Below are positions 4,233-22,704 of a stretch of DNA of 64,000 nucleotides, in pieces; position 1 is the stretch's first letter; every line of letters begins with the position of its first letter. The stretch covers positions 1-64,000 of the forward strand of contig CAIJPS010000103.1 of the NCBI GenBank assembly GCA_903822595.1, read 5' to 3'. Position numbers and translations under genes: made by a program. Source of the stretch: an uncultured Chlorobiaceae bacterium (lineage in GTDB: Bacteria; Bacteroidota; Chlorobiia; Chlorobiales; Chlorobiaceae). The notes beneath the pieces were generated by a model, which was given only the letters and a program-made list of their open reading frames with translations, searched no databases and was not told the origin of the DNA.

Positions 4233-5414
4233 ATGAAGAGAGAATATTACGAAGTGCTTGGTGTGGGCCGGACGGCAACCAAGGACGAGATAAAAAAGGC
4301 ATACAGAAAGCTGGCCTTGCAGTTTCATCCCGACAAGAATCCTGACAACAAGGATGCTGAGGATCACTTCAAGGAGGTTAACGAAGCCTATGAAGTGCTG
4401 AGTAACGACGACAAACGACGCCGTTACGACCAGTTCGGTCATGCCGGTGTTGGCTCTTCTGCCGCATCGGGTGGCGGGCAGCCGGGCGGTGGAGCCGATT
4501 TAAACGATATTTTCAGCGCTTTCAACGACATGTTCAGCGGCAGGAACAGGGGAGGTGGTTCTCCCTTCGGTTTTGAAGACGCATTTGGTGGCGGTGGCAG
4601 AAGACGCGCTTCAGCGGGTATTGCTGGAACGGATCTGAAAATCCGTCTCAAGTTGACCCTTGAGGAGATTGCCAAGGGTGTTGAAAAAACATTGAAGATA
4701 AAAAAACAGGTTACCTGCAAGGAGTGTAACGGCAGTGGATCCAAATCGGGCGCAACAGAGAACTGTCAGACCTGCCACGGCAGTGGAGAGGTTCGACAGG
4801 TTTCAAAAACGATGTTTGGTCAGTTTGTCAATGTTGCCGCCTGTCCGACATGCGGAGGTGAAGGCCGGATTATCAAGGATCGTTGTACCGCATGTTATGG
4901 TGAAGGGATAAAGCTTGGTGATGTCACCGTAAAGGTTGCGGTTCCATCTGGAGTCGAGGACGGGAATTACCTCACCCTGCGCGGCCAGGGCAACTCCGGG
5001 CCGAGAGGAGGTGCCGCCGGTGACTTGATTGTTGTGATTGAAGAGATCCCGCACGAGCTCTTTTCACGCAATGGAGACGATGTGATCTATAACCTTGCCG
5101 TCAGTTTTCCCGACCTTGTGCTCGGTACAAAGGTTGATGTTCCGACGCTTGACGGAGCGGTCAAGCTGACCATTCCTCCCTCGACGCAGCCGGAGACCAT
5201 GCTTCGTATAGCGGGTCACGGGATCGGTCATCTGAGAGGATCGTCAAGGGGCGACCAGTATGTAAAAGTCAACGTTTTTGTTCCAAAAGATCTTTCACAT
5301 CAGGACAAGGAGCTTCTGAAAGAGATGAAAAAATCCTCAGGGATTTCACCCTCGGCCCACAACGACAAGAATGCCAAAGGCTTTTTTGAAAAAGCCCGAG
5401 ATATCTTCAGTTAA
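4233..5414 (+). CDS. dnaJ: Chaperone protein DnaJ
   Basis: Hsp40 co-chaperone that delivers substrates to DnaK and stimulates its ATPase. 393 residues with the full type I layout: J domain (residues 1-70, with FHPDKN carrying the HPD motif), a Gly/Phe-rich linker (about 75-130), four CxxCxGxG zinc-finger repeats ([32 protein letters not shown]; about 165-230) and the C-terminal substrate-binding beta domain. The third and fourth repeats are slightly degenerate but all eight cysteines are present. It is the last gene of the heat-shock run and is followed 18 bp later by a strong bidirectional terminator. Confidence 0.97.
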
Positions 5415-17773: not shown

Positions 17774-18130
17774 TTACACCGTTTCGCGTTTGCCTAAGCT
17801 CTCTGCCAACATGGATGTTACCAGAGAGTTCATGCTGACACCCTCTTGTTTTGCTCTCATAACCAAACGGGAATGAATGCTTTTAGGAACCCGTTGAATA
17901 AACTTGCCACTGTGCGTGCCACCACTATCTGGTTCTGGAACAGCCATGTTCAAGCTTTCCAGGGCAGCAATTGTTTCCTGTAAGGCATCCATTCCATTTT
18001 CAATTGCTTTAGCTATTGTTTCGCCATCTGAAATACATTCAGAAAAGTCAGTAAATGAAATCATATAACCACTACCCTCTTCTTTTGAAAGAGGACGAAT
18101 TTCAAATGGGTATTTGCTTAAATCTTTCAT
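17774..18130 (-). CDS. hicB: HicB-type antitoxin
   Basis: 118 residues. The N-terminal part (YPFEIRPLSKEEGSGYMISF, then FSECISDGETIAKAIENGMD) is the HicB partial RNase-H-like domain, and the C-terminal part (SGKFIQRVPKSIHSRLVMRAKQ, VSMNSLVTSMLAESL) is a ribbon-helix-helix DNA-binding domain. It follows hicA, whose ancestral stop lies 3 bp upstream of this ATG. The antitoxin is complete, whereas hicA is interrupted by a repeat. The 13-bp gap to lolD suggests the ATPase may be transcribed from the same operon. Confidence 0.88.
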   Translation of the reverse strand: MKDLSKYPFEIRPLSKEEGSGYMISFTDFSECISDGETIAKAIENGMDALQETIAALESLNMAVPEPDSGGTHSGKFIQRVPKSIHSRLVMRAKQEGVSMNSLVTSMLAESLGKRETV

Positions 18131-18133
18131 AGC

Positions 18134-18486
18134 TCAATCCATTACAAAATCAACAAATTTCTTGATGTAAACCGGTTTAATCGCTATAGGAAATATTCCT
18201 CGAAGCTTTGCTTCGTGAAGGAATTCTCAAACATGAACTCATCCTCCATAGCTCTGCTGCGGGGTAGTTGATTTGGCCGATGAGCAGGGACAAGTAACGT
18301 CCGACCATCAGCGCGAACAAAAACGACGTGGTTTGTACCTTGTTGCCGCCATTTGATGTTGTAAGCGCTGGCAACGGTTTTCAGATTTTCAATCCGCCAG
18401 TCAAAGGGATTGTTTTGTATCTGCTGGAGGATTTTATCTGCTTTGTTCAAAGGGTGTATGATACTAAATATGATATCATGATGCAA
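18134..18486 (-). pseudogene. hicA: hicA toxin gene interrupted by a 92-bp palindromic repeat
   Basis: HicA is a small mRNA interferase with a double-stranded-RNA-binding-like fold. The visible N-terminal part reads KADKILQQIQNNPFDW and RWQ-type segments up to GTNHVVFVRADGRTLLVPAHRP. Normal HicA proteins continue IKPVYIKKFV. Here, the reading enters a 92-bp repeat at 18273 and ends in it with a foreign tail (FENSFTKQSFEEYFL). The expected end IKPVYIKKFVDFVMD and its TGA are found directly after the repeat (18134-18181), in the right frame for a continuous gene and 3 bp before hicB. So the repeat was inserted into an intact hicA. The start is uncertain: TTG 18450 fits family length better than ATG 18486. 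Confidence 0.9.
18182..18273 (-). repeat. 92-bp palindromic (REP-like) repeat, copy 1
   Basis: Same length as copy 2 at 22364-22455 and 88 of 92 positions identical (by eye). It contains two hairpins, CCCCGCAGCAGAGCTA(T)GG and ACGAAGCAAAGCTTCG. This copy has three changes in the right arm of the first hairpin. Boundaries are read from hicA: the codons CAT CGG CCA end on one side and ATT AAA CCG resume on the other. The 92 bp is not a multiple of three, so it shifts the frame. No transposase is nearby. Confidence 0.85.
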
Positions 18487-22189: not shown

Positions 22190-22453
22190 ATCACCCAAAC
22201 AACCCCACAAAGGCAGCCAGCATCCCTGCTGCCAGTCTACCGCGACAAAATCGACATCCCTGACGATATCGAAACCAGCTTCAAAACCGAAACCGGCAAA
22301 AGAATCAAGCACCCCTTCAACCACATAACCTGGTTACACAAGCGCTACAATGATAAAAACTCCAATCAACTACCCCGCAGCAGAGCTACGGGGTATGAGT
22401 TCATGTTTGAGAATTCCTTCACGAAGCAAAGCTTCGAGGAGTATTTCCTATAG
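22190..22453 (+). pseudogene. Unidentified gene fragment ending inside the palindromic repeat
   Basis: An open frame of 87 codons without any start codon near its beginning. The middle reads VYRDKIDIPDDIETSFKTET then GKRIKHPFNHITWLHKRYND, which looks like real protein sequence but is not recognised. From 22364 the frame enters repeat copy 2 and ends at a TAG within it, so the last 29 residues are repeat-derived (ending FTKQSFEEYFL), just as in hicA. Most likely the 3' part of a decayed gene truncated by the repeat. The rest of 21966-22190 shows no coding signal. Confidence 0.5.
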
Positions 22454-22455
22454 CG
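22364..22455 (+). repeat. 92-bp palindromic (REP-like) repeat, copy 2
   Basis: Inverted with respect to copy 1 at 18182-18273 and better preserved: ACCCCGCAGCAGAGCTACGGGGT forms a stem of seven pairs, and ACGAAGCAAAGCTTCG forms a second stem. In this copy the flanks are an unidentified fragment on the left and an Mrr-type nuclease fragment on the right. Shared ends are AATCAACTACCCC and CCTATAGCG. Confidence 0.85.
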
Positions 22456-22704
22456 ATTAAACGGGAACAAATAGGGGATTTTAGAAATGCAATGATGGGC
22501 GGGGCAGAAAAGGGTATTTTTATAACAACAGGATATTTTAGTGCAGATTCTGAAAGAGAAGCTTCCCGAGAGGGTGCGACTCAAATTGAACTTGTAGATT
22601 GTGATAAACTGATAGAAATGTTTGAAAATTCAGAACTTGGCCTGAAGCAGATAACAACTTATGATGTTGATCGTCAGTTTTTTGAGAAATACATAAAGAG
22701 CTAA
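22456..22704 (+). pseudogene. C-terminal fragment of an Mrr-type restriction endonuclease
   Basis: The frame, open from the end of the repeat, reads REQIGDFRNAMMGGAEKGIF, then ITTGYFSADSEREASREGA and IELVDCDKLIEMF, ending FFEKYIKS. This matches the C-terminal half of Mrr_cat-type nucleases, whose usual pattern is DFRGAM...KGIFITTG. The upstream catalytic Asp and QxK (FQCKRY-type) part is absent: the repeat abuts the fragment. So only about 80 residues remain and nuclease activity is lost. An internal ATG at 22492 could start a 70-residue product. Confidence 0.75.

Follow-up and report, generated by a model that had tools for sequence, protein, structure and literature searches.

The window (the whole stretch of DNA analysed, 64,000 nucleotides from an uncultured green sulfur bacterium of the Chlorobiaceae) carries on its minus strand a hicA gene that is broken by a repeat of 92 bp, which raises the question of what this repeat is and which kind of enzyme has moved it. 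The intact hicB antitoxin gene (118 aa, 17774-18130, minus strand; Pfam HicB 36.2 bits with a cut-off of 21) is preceded by a reading frame (18184-18450, minus strand) that is composed of the first 59 codons of hicA (LNKADK...PAHRP, 18274-18450) and 29 codons from the repeat (NQLPRSRAMEDEFMFENSFTKQSFEEYFL), and that stops at a TAG of the repeat. The hicA frame can be followed up to ...LLVPAHRP (CAT CGG CCA), with the final CCA at 18274-18276. Beyond the insert, which on this strand is read from 18273 to 18182, hicA resumes with ATT AAA CCG GTT TAC ATC AAG AAA TTT GTT GAT TTT GTA ATG GAT TGA (18181 to 18134), so that the last 15 codons and the TGA (IKPVYIKKFVDFVMD, 18134-18181, minus strand) have been severed from the gene. 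Only three bases (GCT) separate this TGA from the hicB ATG at 18130, and this direct reading, on which the earlier note had based its claim of an interrupted gene, is correct. The gene is assigned as hicA because it precedes hicB and because it has a weak match to the Pfam HicA_toxin model; an uninterrupted relative scores 22 bits, below the cut-off of 27.

The uninterrupted form of hicA was taken from relatives and not obtained by joining the flanks within the window. A search of the genus with the first 59 HicA residues identified relatives in 14 other genomes, and in 13 of these congeners the site is empty. The DNA there reads CC[AC]/ATTAAACCG (the slash marks the insertion point; CCC occurs once, otherwise it is CCA), and the protein continues across it as ...HRP (HKP in one)/IKP[IV]YIKKF[VD]DF[IV][MI][DE] up to the stop codon. 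The ending of the severed fragment, which begins with IKPVYIKKF, is thus conserved in all 13, one of which (G073) has a hicA that is frameshifted further upstream. From the uninterrupted genes it follows that the insert is exactly 92 bp long and was accompanied by neither a target duplication nor a deletion, with an ambiguity of a single base in its placement.

A second, independent and equally exact empty site is provided by mrr. Another copy of the element (22364-22455, plus strand, 92 bp, with 4 differences from the copy in hicA) lies within the remnant of an mrr gene. The part before the insert (22339-22363, plus strand) belongs to a gene that had already been truncated upstream, with homology starting at 22339, while the C-terminal part (Mrr_cat) covers 22456-22704. 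An intact mrr paralogue of 299 codons is encoded on contig C53 of the same genome and shows 96% identity over the C-terminal piece; one other Chlorobium genome also has an intact mrr. Congener mrr is continuous across the site (...AACTCC/ATTAAACGG...), and in the comparison with the C53 paralogue the alignment blocks adjoin there, again with no target duplication or deletion. A search of viral contigs with the mrr piece gave no match.

In both genes the element is adjoined by ATTAAA (18176-18181 on the minus strand, that is TTTAAT on the plus strand; 22456-22461 on the plus strand). As this hexamer is present in both empty sites, including the uninterrupted hicA of the relatives, it is host sequence and not part of the element. 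The same preference is seen throughout the genus. Directly outside the last base of the element the sequence is A, T, T, any base, A, A, with each fixed base present in 44-47 of 48 copies, and it is random farther out. On the side of the first base, the flanking DNA is random from the start. The motif ATTNAA occupies only 0.1% of the positions in the window, and we thus consider the preference to be real. Viewed on the opposite strand, insertion has occurred 3′ of TTNAAT, and the target is on one side only.

The boundaries of the element are defined just as precisely. In 49 full-length Chlorobium copies both outer ends are constant, contrary to what would be expected if the junction in hicA were coincidental, and 35 of the 49 are exactly 92 bp long. 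The first bases (AATCAACTACCCC) and the last (CCTATAGCG) are nearly invariant, and the outer bounds are AATCAACTACC... and ...CCTATAGCG. The copy in hicA (18182-18273) reads AATCAACTACCCCGCAGC...CCTATAGCG on the minus strand; in the orientation of an insertion sequence (IS) its left end is at 18182 and its right end at 18273. There are no long terminal inverted repeats. The left end (CGCTATAGG...) has a subterminal hairpin ATTCCTCGAAGC...GCTTCGTGAAGGAAT, and the right end has a hairpin CCCCGTAGC...GCTGCGGGG followed by TAGTTGATT. The element had been described as palindromic, which holds for the presence of hairpins; these are, however, two separate structures with differing ends rather than one palindrome, and the right one is damaged in the hicA copy (-1.1 kcal/mol) while it is intact in the mrr copy (-10.7 kcal/mol). 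One of three changes near this hairpin turns CATA into CATC. With most of its right hairpin gone, the hicA copy may no longer be mobile.

Four full copies and one half copy were found in this genome, which is a draft of 109 contigs with 97.6% completeness and from which a copy could be missing. The half copy (L253:2987-3022 on contig C94) represents only the right end, 36 bp, and is located just beyond the end of a gene. Altogether, the element is present in 31 of 65 Chlorobium genomes (E <= 1e-8), with up to 13 copies per genome. Outside the genus, traces were seen in a single genome, from a different family of the order. An open frame of at least 80 codons is touched by just 18 of 46 copies, compared to 95% of random positions. 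The copies are thus mostly found between genes, and the two in-gene copies described here are unusual among the survivors.

Several copies have lost their core, so that the left and right hairpins are fused in a version of 52-54 bp (L252:2032-2083, L251:1375-1428, L255:1785-1836 and L254:1375-1425). We also looked for longer elements with identical ends, but the partial copies that had suggested them were mostly these core-deleted versions, and the half copy on C94 is a right end only. Two unrelated frames (L252:2040-2507 and the interrupted hicA frame of the window) terminate in near-identical tails encoded by the element, QQSFEEYVL and KQSFEEYFL.

The ends of the element resemble those of IS200-group transposons. 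In Chlorobium, IS200-type Y1 transposases of four genomes (G082, G001, G076 and G002) sit within short elements that start after TTTAAT, TTGAAT or TTAAAT with CTCTA.GGG..., have the left hairpin beside ATTCCCCG and, wherever the downstream side is covered, have ATACC.CG(hairpin)CG.GG...TTTATT or a similar sequence as their terminus beyond tnpA. The TnpA of G082 is intact and obtains 130.7 bits on the NCBIfam model for IS200/IS605 (cut-off 55) but only 25.1 on the model for RAYT (cut-off 80). Profiles built solely from the two ends of the repeat were run against 80 IS200 tnpA loci and against 20 other Y1 loci, which are mostly RAYT-like. The left end was matched upstream of tnpA at 31 of the 80 loci and the right end downstream at 31, always on the expected strand, and both ends were matched at 18 (E <= 0.01); there was no match at any of the 20 others. 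On the opposite side of tnpA there were 3 left-end and 2 right-end matches, a small number that is to be expected because the two hairpins resemble each other. The ends also match IS200-type tnpA loci in many other bacteria. The relationship is at the level of the family, as no full-length IS with both ends identical to those of the 92 bp element was found. In G008 (L160, C60:16900-18820), an element of about 210 bp has both IS200 ends and, enclosed by them, the final 41 codons of tnpA; it is plainly intermediate in form, standing between the IS and the 92 bp repeat.

A further line of evidence comes from base pairing. Enzymes of the IS200/IS605 family select their cleavage sites via a guide located 5′ of each hairpin, which pairs with the cleavage tetranucleotide (PMC6006769). 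We examined this pairing at the right end. Among 38 distinct right ends of IS200 elements, 37 have a guide base X (XATA before the right hairpin) that is complementary to base Y of the cleavage site (TTYATT), with 15 pairs of A with T, 22 of G with C and a single exception. Under shuffling, complementary pairs averaged 19.6 and did not exceed 31 in 20,000 trials, which is not a strict probability as the sequences are related. In the repeat, the pair is mostly C-G (24 copies), with T-A in three, so that the bases differ from those of the IS200 elements while the rule is the same; an exact parent IS would be expected to have the right end CATACCCCG...TAGTTGATT with the C-G pair. Some copies break the rule, including a few that are misread by the simple pattern.

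The one-sided target, the two subterminal hairpins and the lack of a target duplication assign the element to the IS200/IS605 family. We are confident that the 92 bp repeat is a miniature form of an IS200-group insertion sequence, one that lacks a transposase and is reduced to the ends, that is a PATE (palindrome-associated transposable element) or IS200-derived MITE. With the IS200 group it shares TTNAAT on one side, the left and right hairpins and a right-end TTYATT with a complementary guide base (NCBIfam NF033573); it differs in having no tnpA and in its mostly C-G pair, which is A-T or G-C in the sampled IS. We propose that an IS200-type TnpA (a Y1 enzyme of the HUH type), acting in trans, would bind both hairpins on single-stranded DNA, excise the element and reinsert it 3′ of a TTNAAT carried by that same strand, without duplicating the target. 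As no IS200 TnpA was found in the source genome, in its 109-contig draft state, we infer that the mobilising enzyme has been lost since, was supplied from elsewhere or escaped detection in this draft.

Elements of this kind are already known, and the Chlorobium repeat is a new example. The PATEs of Haloquadratum walsbyi (PMC3119063) likewise have palindromes near both ends but no terminal inverted repeats, carry no transposase gene, do not duplicate their target and have ends that match transposons, in their case IS605-type; some are core-deleted down to a terminal-only version of about 52 bp, and insertions occur where intact IS200 transposases are missing. They differ in being haloarchaeal and in having other sequences, while the ends of the Chlorobium element match the IS200 group, which has tnpA only. 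A PATE-like IS605 element of 271 nt from Halanaerobium hydrogeniformans (PMC7290912) is also an ends-only derivative of the IS200/IS605 family, but it is of the IS605 type, occurs as a single copy and has part of tnpB left. A search of the available literature found no paper that links Chlorobium with IS605 and MITEs.

A full-length close relative of the IS200 TnpA is present in only 3 of the 65 Chlorobium genomes, and only 2 of these 3 have the repeat. It is conceivable, but in our view unlikely, that the repeat spreads in Chlorobium without an IS200 transposase, with the help of a resident enzyme, of the Y1 type or another, which has co-opted IS200-type ends, and that on insertion the repeat may also supply new C-terminal tails (...SFEEY.L) to host proteins.

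Still less probable is that the repeat belongs to the REPs or REPINs and owes its mobility to a RAYT (TnpA_REP) encoded elsewhere in the genome, as had been suggested in the earlier note. REPs and REPINs are also short hairpin repeats, mostly intergenic and moved by a Y1 enzyme (PMC6006769, PMC3116915), RAYT and IS200 TnpA being related, and the size of about 92 bp with two hairpins would fit. A RAYT does exist here: among three Y1 matches in the source genome, one reaches 85.1 bits (curated cut-off 80) and is encoded on the same contig as the element (C103; L046, frame 4375-5031), at a distance of about 78 kb from the copy in hicA. The second fits the RAYT model best but is below the cut-off, and the third is a fragment at a contig end. 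This RAYT is, however, accompanied by a different repeat, a perfect 28 bp inverted repeat (CCGGGAACGCGGAGCCCCAGCTCCGCAT and its complement) within its own open frame (L046:4394-4577), perhaps its REP, which is unrelated to the 92 bp element; a search of the RAYT neighbourhood for the latter gave no match. REPs are defined by a hairpin with the tetranucleotide GT[AG]G on its 5′ side (PMC6006769) and have a RAYT partner that is flanked by them (PMC6006769, PMC3116915), while the Chlorobium element has neither: the tetranucleotide does not precede either hairpin, the strand of the right-end hairpin having GTAG on its 3′ side and the left end none. Moreover, the two ends are unlike in sequence and occur at IS200 tnpA loci but at none of the mostly RAYT-like ones, and 0-14 copies per genome contrast with more than 100, which PMC2817692 gives as typical of REPs. 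Since the IS200/IS605 type is evident in the ends, in the TTNAAT target, in the architecture and in how guide and cleavage site pair, we do not regard the repeat as a REP moved by a RAYT.

Marginally weaker again is the proposal that present-day mobilisation is due to a non-IS200 enzyme, such as a resident Y1 protein that recognizes IS200-like ends in trans. It would account for a repeat that is far more widespread than the full-length transposase, and the same puzzle has been reported for Haloquadratum (PMC3119063). However, a past or transient TnpA that was later lost explains this distribution equally well, decayed tnpA pieces do occur in several genomes, and such ends were found at none of the other Y1 loci examined. 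Finally, the draft state of the genome might suggest that there was no insertion and that an assembly join or ordinary divergence of the sequence had produced the pattern, but this is refuted by two independent, exact empty sites, with identical end points and copies that differ from each other.

We thus return to the ends-only derivative of an IS200-group element and to its effect on the host. By its insertion, the last 15 codons of hicA would have been exchanged for 29 codons of the element and a stop, which has probably disabled the HicA toxin while hicB was left intact. The case thus records a probable loss of the toxin beside an intact antitoxin gene, and illustrates that the element is able to provide host proteins with a new C-terminus and a stop codon. 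It represents a well-bounded ends-only IS200 element in a bacterium, backed by two exact empty sites, and indicates that repeats of this kind can be separated from those of the REP/RAYT system by their one-sided target, the kinship of their ends and the covariation between guide and cleavage site.
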